This document shows positions 33,263 through 37,663 of a stretch of DNA of 64,000 nt, in pieces. Under the pieces are notes generated by a model that was given only the letters and a program-made list of their open reading frames with translations, searched no databases and was not told where the DNA came from. The number at the start of each line of letters is the position of its first letter. Position 1 is the first letter of the stretch. The stretch comes from Thauera propionica (lineage in GTDB: Bacteria > Pseudomonadota > Gammaproteobacteria > Burkholderiales > Rhodocyclaceae), in assembly GCF_002245655.1 (NCBI RefSeq), contig NZ_NOIH01000001.1:1-64000 (forward strand). The letters run 5' to 3'. Both the position numbers and the translations under genes were made by a program.

Positions 33263-33592
33263 ATGAGCATCCAAGACGTCATCCGCGACCAGGTCACCAG
33301 CAACGACGTGGTTCTCTACATGAAGGGTTCGCCCCAGTTCCCGCAGTGCGGCTTTTCGTCCGCCGCCGTTCAGATCCTGAAAGCCTGTGGTGTGAAGGAA
33401 GTGCTGGCCGTCAACGTGCTGGCCGACAACGACATCCGTCAGGGCATCAAGGACTATTCCAGCTGGCCGACCATCCCCCAGCTTTACATCAAGGGCGAGT
33501 TCATCGGCGGCAGCGACATCATGCGCGAGATGTACGACAGCGGTGAACTGCAGCAGATGCTGAAGGATGCGGGCGTAGTCGACGCTGCCTGA
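33263..33592 (+). CDS. grxD: Monothiol glutaredoxin GrxD
   Basis: A 109-residue class II glutaredoxin that binds a [2Fe-2S] cluster with glutathione and delivers it to target proteins. The active-site CGFS is at residues 29-32 (KGSPQFPQCGFS). The glutathione-binding WPTIPQLYIKGEFIGGSDI is complete. Length is normal. It has its own promoter at 33194 and a terminator at 33653. Confidence 0.97.
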   Translation: MSIQDVIRDQVTSNDVVLYMKGSPQFPQCGFSSAAVQILKACGVKEVLAVNVLADNDIRQGIKDYSSWPTIPQLYIKGEFIGGSDIMREMYDSGELQQMLKDAGVVDAA

Positions 33593-33652
33593 GGCTGCCC
33601 CGCCTGCCTTGCGCAGTGCGTGGGAGGTCTAGCGCAGCGTATGTTGTCCGTG

Positions 33653-33684
33653 GAAAGCCAGCCTTCAGGGCTGGCTTTCTGTTT
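33653..33684 (+). terminator. Terminator between grxD and the nucleotidyltransferase gene
   Basis: GAAAGCCAGCC (33653-33663) pairs with GGCTGGCTTTC (33669-33679), then TGTTTTC. It serves grxD and overlaps the stop codon of the convergent gene ending at 33665, so it may act in both directions. Confidence 0.85.
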
Positions 33685-34768
33685 TCTGCGCCGGGGTGCG
33701 CGTAAAGCGACCGCGCAGGCGCAATGCCGCCTTCCGCGCGAGGTGAGGCACCAGCATGGATGGCGGCATGCGCTGCAGGTGGTAGCGAGCCAGCATGGCA
33801 AGTCGTGCGACGCGTACCGGCGCCGGTGGCGGATGGTCGGGGTCGTGGGGCAGCATGGCAAGCGGGACCAGCCTGTCCATCAGGCTGCGTGAGAGCGTGG
33901 AGGGGCCAGGCAGGGCGTCCAGCGCGCCCGGTGCCAGCGGCGTCTCCATCCACGCATGGGCGAAGTGCAGGCCATACCACAGCGGAAGCTGCAGACCGAG
34001 TTGTCCGGCACGTTCGAGCAGTCGCTTCCAGAAGCCGTCCTGTGTGGCCGCCGCGCGCACGAGTCCGTCGATATCGACCACTTCGCGGACCCGCAGCGCG
34101 AGGTCACCATCCTGAAAACAGTGCACGCAGGCATGCAGTACCTGGTCCTCTGCAGACAGGACACGGAATGGGGAGTCCGCCAGCAGCACGCTCGCGTCGA
34201 ATAGCTGTGCCGGGTCGAAGCACAGGCTTCCGGTGACGGGCGTGATCGCGTGATGCAGATCGACCTCAAGGAACCGCCCCGGGAAGCGCATGGGCGGGGT
34301 TTCGTGGCTCCAGTCACGGTAATAGCGCTCGTCATACGGGTCGAGTTGGGCCGGTACCCACCCTGCCGCCCGCAAGCCTTGCTCCATGGCCCGCAGGTGG
34401 TCGCGCGGAACGAGCAGGTCGACATCGGAGACGAAGCGTCCGCGTGCGAACCGCTGGCCCTGGAGGGCGTAGGCGCCGCCCTTCACGACCAGCACCGGGA
34501 ACGATCCATCGCACAGTGCCGCGAGCTCAGTGAGTTCCGCCCGCAGCATCTGGTTGTTGAAGGCGCAGACCCGTTCGGCGGAGAGCAGGTGACGCCGCAC
34601 CGGCGCCGGCAGCGTGGGGTTGTCGCGGTTGGCCGCCGCCAGTCTTCCGTGCAGCGCAGTCATGCGCGCCAACCGCAGCAGGCGCTCCCAGGTGGTGATG
34701 TCGGTGTCCAGGGGGGCGCTCAGCGCGCGCAGGAGCAACTGAAGCTCGCGGGAGAGGGGCGGCTTCAT
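33665..34768 (-). CDS. Nucleotidyltransferase-fold protein of the HPr-rel-A cassette
   Basis: A 367-residue cytosolic protein of the uncharacterised nucleotidyltransferase family (NTP_transf_5 type). The core has VLVVKGGAYALQ (KGG at 96-98) and RGRFVSDVDLLVPRDHL, where Asp115 and Asp117 are the metal-binding pair. GRFLEVDLHHAI supplies a third acidic residue. The rest is helical (LHACVHCFQDGDLALRVREVVDIDGLV), ending in a basic tail. The ATG at 34768 overlaps the kinase stop as ATGA. Relatives occur beside HprK-like kinases and PqqD-like proteins, including in lasso peptide clusters of the paeninodin type. The transferred nucleotide and acceptor are unknown. Confidence 0.82.
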   Translation of the reverse strand: MKPPLSRELQLLLRALSAPLDTDITTWERLLRLARMTALHGRLAAANRDNPTLPAPVRRHLLSAERVCAFNNQMLRAELTELAALCDGSFPVLVVKGGAYALQGQRFARGRFVSDVDLLVPRDHLRAMEQGLRAAGWVPAQLDPYDERYYRDWSHETPPMRFPGRFLEVDLHHAITPVTGSLCFDPAQLFDASVLLADSPFRVLSAEDQVLHACVHCFQDGDLALRVREVVDIDGLVRAAATQDGFWKRLLERAGQLGLQLPLWYGLHFAHAWMETPLAPGALDALPGPSTLSRSLMDRLVPLAMLPHDPDHPPPAPVRVARLAMLARYHLQRMPPSMLVPHLARKAALRLRGRFTRTPAQKTESQP

Positions 34769-35613
34769 GCATGCTCCGCGAACAGGGCGTCGATGTGTGC
34801 GATGGCAGCGGACAAGTCGCCGTACTCCAGCTCGAAGGCGCGTGTCGCGCGGGCAAGGCGTACCACAGCGTCGAAACCGACCGTGCCGAGGGTGCGGTAG
34901 TTGAAGCTGTTCAACCCCAGCCGCATGGCAGCATCCGCCGTGTGAATGGGGGTACAGCACAGTGCCGCACCGTCCCGGAAGCGAGGGAAGATGATCAGGC
35001 GGGGGCGCGCCGGGCGGTGGCGGTCGGCGATGCTGTCGCGCAGTGGAACGAAATGTGCCACGTCGCCCTTTCGCGTTCCGTGGAAGACGGGGCCGAGCCT
35101 GGCGCGCGGGTGCTGGCCGATGATGCCGATCGAGCGGTTCTTCAGTGCGGCGGGCTTGAGCAGTGGCAGCAGATCGCCACTGTCCGGATCGAGCACGCCG
35201 AACTCATCCGACAGAAAGCGCCAGCCGGCGAGATGCAGCGCGCAGGTCAGCGTGCTTTTTCCCGAGCCGGGTGCGGCGGGCAGGATCAGTGCGCGGTCGT
35301 TGCGCGCGAGCACCCCTGCGTGCAACAGCAGATAGGCGTTCAGCCTTTGTGCGAGCAGCCAGTTGCCGCCCCATTCGAACAGCGGGAGGCCGCTGCCAAC
35401 CGGGTAGGGCTCGAACGGGCGGCTGCCTTCGGACCACAGTGCGATCTGCCGTTTCCATAGCCGCAAGGGATGGCCCGGAAGCAGTGCGACGCGCACGTCG
35501 GCGAAGCCGGCGGGGTCCTCCTCGCCGTAATCCCGATACACGAGGTCGAGTTGCTGGTGGAAGCTCTCGATGGGCGAACGAACCGCGATGCGTGCCGCGC
35601 CGAGATCGAACAT
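34765..35613 (-). CDS. HprK-related kinase A
   Basis: A 282-residue protein related to the C-terminal half of HPr kinase/phosphorylase. LLLHAGVLARNDRALILPAA leads into the P-loop APGSGKST (114-121), followed by the HprK-type acidic motif LSDEFGVLDP (135-142). LKPAALKNRSIGIIG follows in place of the HprK K-loop. No receptor for HPr is visible and PTS genes are absent nearby. In paeninodin-type lasso clusters a related kinase phosphorylates the peptide C-terminal serine, so a peptide or protein target is plausible. ATG 35613 is used; a GTG at 35631 overlaps the previous stop as GTGA and is a real alternative. It is coupled by ATGA to the nucleotidyltransferase gene. Confidence 0.85.
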   Translation of the reverse strand: MFDLGAARIAVRSPIESFHQQLDLVYRDYGEEDPAGFADVRVALLPGHPLRLWKRQIALWSEGSRPFEPYPVGSGLPLFEWGGNWLLAQRLNAYLLLHAGVLARNDRALILPAAPGSGKSTLTCALHLAGWRFLSDEFGVLDPDSGDLLPLLKPAALKNRSIGIIGQHPRARLGPVFHGTRKGDVAHFVPLRDSIADRHRPARPRLIIFPRFRDGAALCCTPIHTADAAMRLGLNSFNYRTLGTVGFDAVVRLARATRAFELEYGDLSAAIAHIDALFAEHA

Positions 35614-35627
35614 GCGATGCGAGCGTC

Positions 35628-35912
35628 TCACGCCGTCCCTCGCGTCCCGACGGGGGCGCACACCGGCAGCGTCGCGAGGCTGCGCACAAGCCGCTCCAGA
35701 CCGGGCGGCCAGCCGCCCATGTCGGCAATCTCGTGCTCGAACGCAGACAGGCGATCGTCGTCGATTGCGGCTGCCGCCTCGCGCAGGATCAGCACCGCGC
35801 CTTCGCTGAGCAGATGCGTGTCCAGCCAGAGCGGGTCCAGAAAAAGAAACTGCCCGTCCAAGGACGGGCAGTGTTCCTGAAGCCAGGCGAGCGCCCCATT
35901 TCCTGCTCGCAT
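35628..35912 (-). CDS. PqqD-like protein of the HPr-rel-A cassette
   Basis: A 94-residue protein fitting the small winged-helix PqqD/RRE fold that binds leader sequences of modified peptides. The pattern is FLFLDPLWLDTHLLSEGAVLILREAAA (two short strands, then DTHLLSEGA and a helix), then DMGGWPPGLERLVRSLATL. This matches what I know as the HPr-rel-A system PqqD family chaperone; the family call rests on pattern and neighbours. ATG 35912 has GGGAC about ten bases upstream; a TTG directly before it is also possible. A terminator-like hairpin lies inside codons 14-21. It begins 12 bp after the exported-protein gene. Confidence 0.72.
   Translation of the reverse strand: MRAGNGALAWLQEHCPSLDGQFLFLDPLWLDTHLLSEGAVLILREAAAAIDDDRLSAFEHEIADMGGWPPGLERLVRSLATLPVCAPVGTRGTA
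35835..35872 (-). terminator. Terminator-like hairpin inside the PqqD-like gene
   Basis: On the minus strand ACTGCCCGTCC (35872-35862) pairs perfectly with GGACGGGCAGT (35859-35849) across a two-base loop, and is followed by TTCTTTTTCTGG. This has the stem and U-rich tail of an intrinsic terminator, yet it lies about 14 codons into the coding sequence. It could limit transcription of the downstream enzymes relative to the exported protein. It also encodes conserved-looking residues, so the match may be coincidental. Confidence 0.55.
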
Positions 35913-35924
35913 CAATGCGTCCCG

Positions 35925-36533
35925 TCAGCCGCCGTAGGTGTAGTTGCCCGCAGCGCCCGGGTTGATCGAGTTGAGGCAGGACTCGGATGCCGGCGCGAAA
36001 CCGTCTCCGTCCATCGTGTAGGCGGGATAGGTGCCGATCTCTTCGCCGTTCTCGTCGAAATAGACGAGCACCCAGCCCACTTTCGGGTAACCGGCTGCGG
36101 TCTGCGCCTCTACACCGACGAGGGGGTCATGGGGTGGCGTGGTCGAATAGACGAGATTGCTGACCTCGAAACCTTCCACCGCGTCACTCGCTGCCTCCGG
36201 CGCCGACTGCTCGTCGGAATCCTTCTTCCTACCCTTGCCCTTGCCGGGCTGCCCCCCCGTGGCCGGCGGAGCAGCCACCACCGGCGGAGCGTACATATTG
36301 ACGGGAACCTGTCGCCACGCCCAGTTACCCGGGGTGAGGTCGGGCGGCTGATCGCCGAGGAAGAACTGGTTCGAGCCGGCAGGGTAGCCGCCGTCGACTT
36401 TCGCGATGCAGTTCAGCGACGCGGCTGCGACCGGAGCGCCATACCCGAGGGTGACGACCGTGGACGCGCCCAATGCACCCTTGAGCACACGTCGTCGTTG
36501 CTCAATGGATTTGTCTTGGGGGGCGTTTGTCAT
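35925..36533 (-). CDS. Tat-exported protein, proposed substrate of the HPr-rel-A cassette
   Basis: A 202-residue protein I do not recognise. The N-terminus has a twin-arginine signal: QRRRVLKGALG (12-22), a hydrophobic core STVVTLGYGAPVAAAS and likely cleavage near AAAS (residue 39). There is no lipobox. The mature part has a proline/glycine/lysine linker (about 88-108, GGQPGKGKGRKK) and a C-terminal domain VGWVLVYFDENGEEIGTYPAYT followed by SESCLNSINPGAAGNYTYGG. Only two cysteines remain after cleavage, Cys42 and Cys186. The ATG at 36533 has GAGG six bases upstream; upstream ATGs (36545, 36569) lack a good site. It is first in the operon, the usual place for the target of the modifying enzymes that follow. 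Confidence 0.68.
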   Translation of the reverse strand: MTNAPQDKSIEQRRRVLKGALGASTVVTLGYGAPVAAASLNCIAKVDGGYPAGSNQFFLGDQPPDLTPGNWAWRQVPVNMYAPPVVAAPPATGGQPGKGKGRKKDSDEQSAPEAASDAVEGFEVSNLVYSTTPPHDPLVGVEAQTAAGYPKVGWVLVYFDENGEEIGTYPAYTMDGDGFAPASESCLNSINPGAAGNYTYGG

Positions 36534-36569
36534 AATCAACCTCATGGAATTCTCGTCGGCTTCAAGCAA

Positions 36570-36597
36570 ATTATAGCCGCATATGTCTTGCTGTCAG
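36570..36597 (-). promoter_or_regulatory. Promoter of the HPr-rel-A cassette
   Basis: Read on the minus strand: CTGACA (36597-36592), 16-bp spacer, TATAAT (36575-36570). It is 37 bp upstream of the ATG at 36533. The remaining 160 bp to the fructosamine-kinase-like gene show no further gene or strong motif. Confidence 0.7.
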
Positions 36598-36757
36598 GGC
36601 GACTGTACCGTGAACGTAGCAAATCTCACGCCTGGACTCCGAAAACGGCCATAAGTTATTGATAGACAGTGTTGTCGCGTCCGTCGGGTGCCAACGGCGG
36701 TCAGGCAGTGTAAGAAATCCCGACAAGCGGGCCGGCCCCTCCCAGTGCGATCTGCCG

Positions 36758-37663
36758 TCAGTGCCGCCACACCGATAGTGCCTCGTTCAGGCGGGTGGTC
36801 AGCCGCAGCGCCTCCCCCAGGTATCCGCGGCCGAACAGGTTCAGGTGGTTCAGCATGTGATACAGGCTGTAGACGTCCTTGCGTCGCGGGTAGTCTTCGT
36901 GGATCGGCCACGCCTTGCGGTACTCGGCGTAGAAGCTGCCCGGGAATCCGCCGAACAGTTCGCTCATCGCCAGATCGGACTCGCGGTCGCCGTAATGAAC
37001 GGCGGGGTCGAAGATCGCGGGAGTCCCATCCTCGAGGACTGCCGCGTTCCCGTGCCACAGGTCGCCATGCAGCAGGCTTTCTGCAGGGCGGTAGTCGAGG
37101 AAGAGTGCGGGTACGCGCTCGAACAGGCGCTCGCCCTGTTTCTGGAGTTCGCCGCTGAAGCCATGCTGCCGGGCGAGCGCGAACTGGGGGCGAAGGCGGT
37201 GTTCGACGAAGAACAGCGCCCAGTTGTCGGCCGGCGTGTTGCGCTGCGGCGTGCTGCCGATGAAGTTGTCTCGCCGCCAGCCGAAACGCGTGCCGGTCGT
37301 GCGGTGCAGCTGGACGAGAGTGTCGGCGAAGCGGGTGCCCTCATCGGTCGAGTGCAGAGGCCGGAGCGCGAGGTGTTCGAGCACGAGGAAGGCGTGCGCT
37401 TCGTCCGCGCCACAGGCGATTGGTGCCGGCGTGCGGAAGCAGTTTGCGGCGGCGAGCGCAAGCAGGCCGTCGACTTCGGCTTCGAACATCGGCAGTCGTG
37501 CCGCATTACCGAGCTTGACGAAGAAGCGCTCGCGGTCGCCCGCGACGACGACGGCTTCGTGAATGCATCCGCCACCGACCGGGGCGACGTCGCGGATACT
37601 GAACGCGCTGCCGACGCGCTGGCGGATGGCGTGCTCGATGAGGGGAAGTGCAGGGTGGCTCAT
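36758..37663 (-). CDS. Fructosamine kinase family protein
   Basis: A 301-residue cytosolic protein of the fructosamine/ketosamine-3-kinase family, which phosphorylates sugars attached to protein amines and so triggers deglycation. Features: the glycine-rich VGGGCIHEA, FFVKLGNA with the ATP-binding lysine, FLVLEHLAL hinge, GWRRDNFIGSTPQRN, catalytic LLHGDLWHGNAAVLEDGTPAIFDPAVHYGDRE (HGDLWxGN and metal-binding Asp) and LNHLNLFGRGYLG. Length is normal. Its ATG overlaps the stop codon of the Ser/Thr kinase gene (ATGA), so the two kinases are cotranslated. Confidence 0.92.
   Translation of the reverse strand: MSHPALPLIEHAIRQRVGSAFSIRDVAPVGGGCIHEAVVVAGDRERFFVKLGNAARLPMFEAEVDGLLALAAANCFRTPAPIACGADEAHAFLVLEHLALRPLHSTDEGTRFADTLVQLHRTTGTRFGWRRDNFIGSTPQRNTPADNWALFFVEHRLRPQFALARQHGFSGELQKQGERLFERVPALFLDYRPAESLLHGDLWHGNAAVLEDGTPAIFDPAVHYGDRESDLAMSELFGGFPGSFYAEYRKAWPIHEDYPRRKDVYSLYHMLNHLNLFGRGYLGEALRLTTRLNEALSVWRH

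Follow-up and report, generated by a model that had tools for sequence, protein, structure and literature searches.

A twin-arginine precursor protein beside an HprK-related kinase in Thauera propionica: a candidate protein-tailoring cassette

Introduction

What do a kinase and a nucleotidyltransferase act on when they are encoded with a putative peptide-recognition protein, in a cassette whose open reading frame (ORF) list contains neither a cyclase nor a leader peptidase? This question is raised by four minus-strand genes within positions 1 to 64,000 of contig NZ_NOIH01000001.1 of Thauera propionica (assembly GCF_002245655.1), a stretch of 64,000 nucleotides referred to here as the window. 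An initial annotation, made from the sequence alone, had described these genes and had proposed that the first product, a protein with a signal for twin-arginine translocation (Tat), is bound by a PqqD-like protein and then phosphorylated and/or nucleotidylated. All four genes were confirmed (Table 1), as was the lack of a cyclase and a leader peptidase, so far as the ORF list can tell. Flanking genes in the window are ordinary by the same list.

Comparable enzymes are known from ribosomally synthesized and post-translationally modified peptides (RiPPs). PsmK is reported to phosphorylate the C-terminal serine of a lasso peptide, to which PsmN adds hexoses (PMC9266682). The closest known system is that of the linear polyphosphorylated peptides (LPP) of Bacillota, published in 2026 and reported as restricted to that phylum, in which a RiPP recognition element (RRE), an HprK-like kinase, and a nucleotidyltransferase accompany linear precursors (PMC13381572). 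In that system, LppK is described as placing several phosphates on one serine, and an SpI-like peptidase as removing the leader (PMC13381572).

Results

Twin-arginine proteins recur beside the cassette, mainly across Pseudomonadota. The HprK_rel_A kinase scored above its cutoff in 50 of 300 order-level, 59 of 150 family-level, and 61 of 398 phylum-level genomes sampled. A first set of 95 kinase-bearing loci comprised the window, 49 loci that the order survey had supplied, and 45 that came from scanning named genomes; one record entered twice (as L047 and L101), and its second entry, L101, was kept in this set and removed from the precursor class and motif counts given below. A leader hidden Markov model was built from 72 loci, after seven false regular-expression seeds (L037, L051, L097, L099, L102, L114, and L119) had been discarded by eye, and was used with a threshold of 12 bits. 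This model matched a frame directly upstream in 82 of the 95 loci and just downstream of the nucleotidyltransferase gene in five more (L033, L066, L073, L079, and L080), with no further match of at least 12 bits among the 14,347 first-set reading frames. Adding L077 (10.6 bits), L076 (by eye), and five planctomycete/alpha-type loci (by eye) brought the count to 94 of 95. The remaining locus, L113, carries a precursor truncated at a contig end and was left out of counts, as were L052 (no kinase) and L164, L183, and L187 (duplicates of training loci).

Because the first-set counts are partly circular, the unchanged model was tried on new loci. A leader match was found in 47 of the 49 loci of held-out set 1, with one stray match in 7,174 frames, and in 44 of the 54 loci of held-out set 2, for which the test was fixed beforehand, with one stray match (L205, opposite strand) in 6,942 frames. 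Set 2 contained 54 of 55 new phylum-level loci; G607 was omitted since its kinase is truncated at a contig end. When 150 family genomes were searched with the alignment of window-type precursors irrespective of position, 12 gave matches, and in all 12 a kinase above the cutoff lay 0.3 to 0.7 kb away on the same strand. The proposed Tat-signal partner thus recurs beside the kinase, and this linkage strongly supports the twin-arginine protein as the putative target of the cassette. The expectation that such partners would share one C-terminal domain proved wrong for all but the type found in the window: what recurs is the leader, and the rest of the protein falls into several unrelated types.

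The other genes travel with the kinase. By an RRE model built from 84 of the 95 first-set loci, a PqqD-like gene adjoins the kinase upstream in 94 of 95; in L051 the PqqD-like sequence shares a frame with the kinase, and in L050 the match reached 18 bits only. A nucleotidyltransferase gene was found in 90 of 95 (on the opposite strand in two). For set 1 the respective counts were 43 of 49 and 49 of 49; for set 2 they were 41 of 54 and, by a single-sequence search, 41 of 54. Gene order varies: the five loci with a downstream leader match carry the precursor 3' of the nucleotidyltransferase gene rather than 5' of the kinase, and in L049 both the precursor and the PqqD-like gene are 3' of it. One genome (G383; L166 and L172) encodes two complete cassettes whose precursors differ: the first belongs to class A (classes are defined below), and the second is B-like but was left unassigned by the regular expressions. 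Five loci (L205, L207, L208, L214, and L220) have a kinase above the cutoff, with no same-strand PqqD-like gene or precursor seen adjoining it.

A conserved leader precedes otherwise unrelated proteins, most of which share a serine signature. The window precursor has the annotated twin-arginine leader and matches no Pfam or NCBIfam family, so that its membership in a known family was rejected. Among 92 aligned precursors, R13 and R14 are invariant; searched against NCBIfam and Pfam, these 92 gave isolated weak matches only (one NCBIfam and three Pfam, each in one member), from which it follows that NCBIfam contains no substrate model for them. The pair RR occurs in 184 of 184 collected leaders and the pattern RRx[FLIVMYA][LIVMFGTA] in 183; RR had itself served in part to gather these leaders, which makes the held-out sets the fairer evidence. 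The T. propionica genome encodes TatC (240.6 bits).

Behind the leader, precursors could be sorted by regular expression into rough bins, in which some are misfiled (e.g., L048 in class B): 52 in class A, 40 in B, 9 in C, 5 in D, and 34 unassigned, of 140. Class A, the window type, has an early cysteine, and its tails include SCWTSL, SCLNSI, and TCYASL. In class B a PS[GA]xxS-like stretch lies behind the leader, mostly with a GYWK-type domain; class C ends in an SATAFTSL-like tail; and class D proteins stop right behind the signal as AASPSS. Among individual precursors, L215 is minimal, with about 20 residues behind the leader that retain the early cysteine and an SCLDSF tail. In L105 the leader and the SCWTSL tail lie in different frames, either because the gene is broken or because the sequence contains an error. 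The planctomycete/alpha-type precursors L122 to L125 and L127 have an RR leader with YVPP and end five residues past A-x-A as ASPSS; a search with the window nucleotidyltransferase (P0004) found no such gene at these five loci.

The strict pattern S[CAGS][WFYLMHIV]xS was present in 86 of 135 precursors (five class D precursors were excluded), compared with a mean of 15.7 and a maximum of 26 in shuffled sequences. It lay within the first 25 mature residues in 39 and within the last 45 in 44. Broader patterns covered 120 of the 135, with head and tail patterns together in 4. The patterns had been picked after viewing these 135 sequences, and this count is thus not independent evidence. In a preset retest, each of 44 new precursors was covered by the broad patterns (39 at the tail, 4 at the head, and 1 at both), whereas shuffling left on average 39.5 of 44 uncovered (minimum, 32; about 4.5 expected to be covered). 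The strict pattern lay at the head or the tail in 27 of the 44 and was wholly absent from 16, of which 14 have TCxxS. In all these counts related precursors are not independent of one another, but their middles look unrelated between classes. Because the signature recurs despite such middles, its serine is proposed as the kinase target. As a phosphorylation site it is the strongest candidate; in the window protein it would most likely be S189.

The predicted structure of the window precursor has a mean predicted local distance difference test score (pLDDT) of 66.8, with a better-scoring strand-rich middle and low confidence for residues 180 to 193, and the tail carrying S189 is probably flexible. 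Among 287 PDB chains aligned, none reached a Z score of 2 or more against this fold.

TABLE 1 Features of the cassette in the window
Feature	Coordinates	Strand	Remarks
Promoter CTGACA-16-TATAAT	36570..36597	minus	11/12 matches
Substrate/precursor gene (P0001)	35925..36533	minus	202 aa, no Pfam/NCBIfam family
Leader/twin-arginine signal	36420..36533	minus	residues 1-38; RR = residues 13-14
Post-leader S39 and C42	36408..36419	minus	invariant in window protein and 17 close relatives
C-terminal signature SCLNS	35967..35981	minus	residues 185-189; C186 invariant, S189 in 17/18; S189 codon 35967-35969
PqqD-like recognition element (RRE) gene (P0002)	35628..35912	minus	94 aa
Terminator-like hairpin and T tract in RRE coding sequence	35838..35872	minus	stem-loop 35849-35872, tail to 35838
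HprK-related kinase A gene	34765..35631	minus	288 aa, GTG start
NTP_transf_5 nucleotidyltransferase gene (P0004)	33665..34768	minus	367 aa
Operon-end hairpin spanning last gene's stop codon	33653..33679	minus	-22.4 kcal/mol, z -3.43

Both enzymes look active from their conserved residues. The kinase belongs to TIGR04352 HprK_rel_A (344.8 bits; cutoff, 200), and the annotated P-loop (PAAPGSGKST) and LSDEFG motifs were verified; H104, G122, G124, K125, S141, D142, and E143 are invariant in 35 aligned sequences. Lasso-tailoring kinases are reported to require a His-Lys-Asp-Asp set (PMC9266682). In our reading, E143 is the counterpart of the last aspartate in that set. The nucleotidyltransferase belongs to PF14907 NTP_transf_5 (182.5 bits; cutoff, 31.2), and K96, G97, R111, D115, D117, H155, D170, and H172 are each conserved at 1.00 in 89 aligned sequences. 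We take the D-x-D formed by D115 and D117 to be the catalytic site.

The label "PqqD-like" for P0002 held through its relatives only. P0002 matched no PqqD family: NCBIfam gave nothing up to an E value of 1, and NCBIfam and Pfam together gave one meaningless weak match. Of 81 proteins at the same position in other loci, 66 match TIGR04353 PqqD_rel_X ("HPr-rel-A system PqqD family peptide chaperone") at an E value of 0.01, and 30 match Pfam PqqD. A profile of the same-position proteins has as its best PDB matches the lasso RREs TfuB1 (1.1e-8) and TbiB1 (3.7e-5), and the window clade aligns to the other clades in profile-profile comparison (93.1%; E value, 3.2e-7) over 33 columns only. The predicted structure of P0002 (mean pLDDT, 83.3) had no Foldseek match at an E value of 0.001. 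By these relationships P0002 appears to be a divergent PqqD-type recognition element of the HPr-rel-A system. The PqqD of pyrroloquinoline quinone (PQQ) synthesis was rejected as its identity, because the sole PF05402 match in the genome lies on contig C55.

Expression signals suggest a high precursor-to-enzyme ratio in the window clade. The annotated CTGACA-N16-TATAAT promoter was recovered as the sole sigma-70-like site in positions 33580 to 36800 (shuffles, 0.4 +/- 0.6). Over 18 loci (the window and 17 relatives), an exact TATAAT lies at about the same distance in 12, as the best-scoring site 48 to 56 nt ahead of the codon six residues before RR, and a one-base variant (TATATT or TATAGT) does so in 2 more. 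The -35 element is variable, and the total promoter score exceeded that of all 20 shuffles in 3 of 18 loci only, the window included. Downstream, the PqqD-like stop codon overlaps the kinase start as GTGA, and the reported ATGA overlap of the kinase and nucleotidyltransferase genes is present.

Within the RRE gene, a terminator-like hairpin reads ACTGCCCGTC-CTTG-GACGGGCAGT, with TTTCTTTTTCT behind it. A scan of positions 33580 to 36800 called four terminator-like sites, this hairpin included (shuffles, 1.5 +/- 1.3); the operon-end hairpin (Table 1) was not among the sites called. The RRE-gene hairpin is kept in 16 of 18 window-type loci (absent from L089 and L093); kinase or nucleotidyltransferase starts gave 0 of 18, and the other clades gave 3 of 77. 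Stem pairing is kept in 91.8% of cells of the window-type alignment. Covariation is thin, with three both-side changes, of which two are in the hairpin-less L093 and one is in L098; sliding the pairing by +1 also gave three both-side pairs, but with 44.7% of cells paired. The codon evidence outweighs the covariation. The codons of F-L-F are TTT, CTT/GTT, and TTT in 14, 16, and 15 of 17 sequences, whereas the kinase and nucleotidyltransferase genes use TTT at 21% and CTT at 5.5%. The glycine of the stem is encoded by GGG in 15 of 16; in those reference genes GGG accounts for 90 of 593. Such codons are not required by the amino acids themselves, although the window-type loci share ancestry and are less than independent. 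The hairpin would likely act as an attenuator: most transcripts would end past the precursor gene, so that substrate is abundant and the enzymes scarce.

Discussion

We consider it probable that the four genes form a RiPP-like protein-tailoring operon, in which the precursor, RRE, kinase, and nucleotidyltransferase act together before Tat export. From the sequence comparisons we infer the following course, from binding through site, chemistry, and order of modification to export. The first gene would encode an exported protein whose N terminus serves as a twin-arginine signal and a conserved leader at once. The PqqD-like protein would bind this precursor and deliver it to the enzymes, and the HprK-related kinase would phosphorylate one serine, possibly several times: most likely S189 in the flexible SCLNS tail of the window protein, and an equivalent post-leader serine in other types. 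The NTP_transf_5 enzyme may then attach a sugar or nucleotide to the serine phosphate, after which the modified protein would leave via Tat and be cut behind A-x-A by the general signal peptidase. Because a Tat-type signal lets general export and signal peptidase serve, the cassette would need no peptidase or transporter of its own. A broader proposal, possible though somewhat short of probable, is that such cassettes represent a widespread class of RiPP-like systems. The Tat signal would double as an RRE-read leader, one S-[small]-[hydrophobic]-x-S serine in whole exported proteins of unrelated types would be given a capped phosphate, as a phospho-sugar or phospho-nucleotide, before export, and, in the window clade, a terminator in the RRE gene would set the precursor-to-enzyme ratio.

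Several observations weigh against this tailoring model. Two loci in set 1 lack a leader match (L145, which is near a contig start, and L175). Of the ten such loci in set 2, some are partly explained (L227 scored a subthreshold 11.4 bits, L233 was recognized by eye, and L226 is cut by a contig end), while neither the model nor inspection of frames by eye found a precursor near the kinase in L207, L208, L214, L220, L230, and L245. All ten but L245 also lack a PqqD-like match; conversely, L229, L231, L232, and L234 have a precursor and no match to the RRE model. That model detected no PqqD-like gene in 6 of 49 set-1 and 13 of 54 set-2 loci, and the nucleotidyltransferase was not detected in 5 of 95 first-set loci or, by the single-sequence search and with some loci near contig ends, in 13 of 54 set-2 loci. 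RRE domains are frequent among the fold matches of P0002, at a best Z score of 3.7, which is too weak to use. A cleavage-like A-x-[AG] site occurs in 146 of the 184 leaders, not in all, and class D proteins would retain only ASPSS past the signal, an odd cargo for Tat. S189 is less strictly conserved than S39 (18 of 18) and is replaced by threonine in the close relative L093; in LPP, a serine-to-threonine change is reported to have abolished phosphorylation, and deletion of lppN to have had no visible effect (PMC13381572).

The conservation of S39 and C42, both invariant in the 18 aligned proteins, points to a different site: S39 may be the phosphorylated residue, as in LPP, where the published site is core S3, right behind the leader (PMC13381572), with the C-terminal SCxxS as merely a structural disulfide tail. 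Class B and D precursors do carry the serine signature directly behind the leader. Yet the tail signature recurs with unrelated middles, the minimal L215 precursor included, and was found at the tail alone in 39 of the 44 retested precursors; the rarity of head and tail patterns together (4 of 135) better fits one site in two positions, and we regard phosphorylation of S39 as unlikely. The role of the leader is also debatable. If it were a Tat signal only, the PqqD-like protein would read the serine motif or the core instead, and nearly all collected leaders do fit the plain Tat pattern; the [Y/W]xxP motif of lasso and LPP leaders, seen in the window as YGAPVA, is kept in 4 of 18 window-type leaders only. 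Against this stand the YVPP of planctomycete-type leaders and the near absence of leader matches outside the cassettes (zero, one, and one frame in the three sets, whose controls did not include ordinary Tat signals), and a pure Tat role seems to us rather doubtful.

A more distant alternative is that the enzymes act elsewhere, with a different protein, a polysaccharide, or some small molecule as their substrate, and that the exported protein is a co-regulated neighbor or the effector of their product. Several of the 124 frames that flank the cassettes at 30 loci match XrtA/PEP-CTERM models, and the methanotroph-type loci L100, L105, and L108 are flanked by an XrtA amidotransferase and an XrtA glycosyltransferase above curated cutoffs (L107 falls below), recalling the polysaccharide neighborhoods of LPP. 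These counts include cross-hits between related families, so that the polysaccharide context is weaker than they imply; in the T. propionica genome, the XrtA amidotransferase lies on a different contig. No first-set locus has two adjacent leader matches above 8 bits, and the pairing of leader with cassette is therefore one to one. This, the recurrence of leader and serine signature in otherwise unrelated proteins, and the PqqD-type peptide-binding protein next to the kinase in nearly every first-set locus make an action elsewhere quite improbable.

By analogy, the cassette would work like LPP or paeninodin tailoring while belonging to neither. With LPP it shares the RRE, the HprK-like kinase, and the nucleotidyltransferase, as well as precursor traits: LPP precursors are described as 35 to 200 aa long, with a conserved N terminus and a variable C terminus, often near capsular polysaccharide genes (PMC13381572). 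LPP clusters are reported to encode an SpI-like leader peptidase together with an MsbA-like transporter, and LPP leaders to carry YxxPxV (PMC13381572). The peptidase and transporter are not among the four cassette genes by the ORF list, no profile search having been made for them, and the system described here is set apart by its twin-arginine leader, by precursors that are mostly whole proteins, and by its occurrence mainly in Pseudomonadota. Paeninodin and pseudomycoidin likewise have an HprK-like kinase, a nucleotidyltransferase-like enzyme acting on a C-terminal serine, and a PqqD-like B1 protein (PMC9266682). They differ in having a macrolactam cyclase, a B2 peptidase, and a lasso core; as the ORF list holds no cyclase or B2 gene in this cassette, a lasso peptide was rejected as its product. 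Bufferins also have a RiPP precursor with an export signal, and preliminary evidence is reported that the signal peptide belongs to the sequence which the enzyme-partner complex recognizes (PMC12452194). As far as they are described there, they differ in using a Sec signal, an MNIO iron enzyme, and cysteine chemistry, with no kinase or nucleotidyltransferase (PMC12452194).

By the score of its kinase, the cassette belongs to a named system, HPr-rel-A (TIGR04352 and TIGR04353), and most RRE-position proteins of its relatives match TIGR04353. A full-text search of open-licence literature found no paper with the HPr-rel-A or TIGR model names, and the system seems to have been named without being described. 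The same literature yielded no paper joining HprK, nucleotidyltransferase, and PqqD to a precursor and a twin-arginine signal, and its three lasso-peptide papers on HPr kinase, nucleotidyltransferase, and RiPP contained no "Tat signal." RRE and twin-arginine occurred together in one paper, which by its title concerns hot-spring metagenomes. What is new here is a putative substrate family with a twin-arginine leader, a serine signature, and a built-in hairpin.

The substrate family, its leader, and a candidate serine make the HPr-rel-A system directly testable, and they raise the question of how an RRE and the Tat receptor share one signal. If the proposal is true, RiPP-type tailoring by a kinase and a nucleotidyltransferase would reach beyond Bacillota and their peptides and take in entire exported proteins, mainly in Pseudomonadota.

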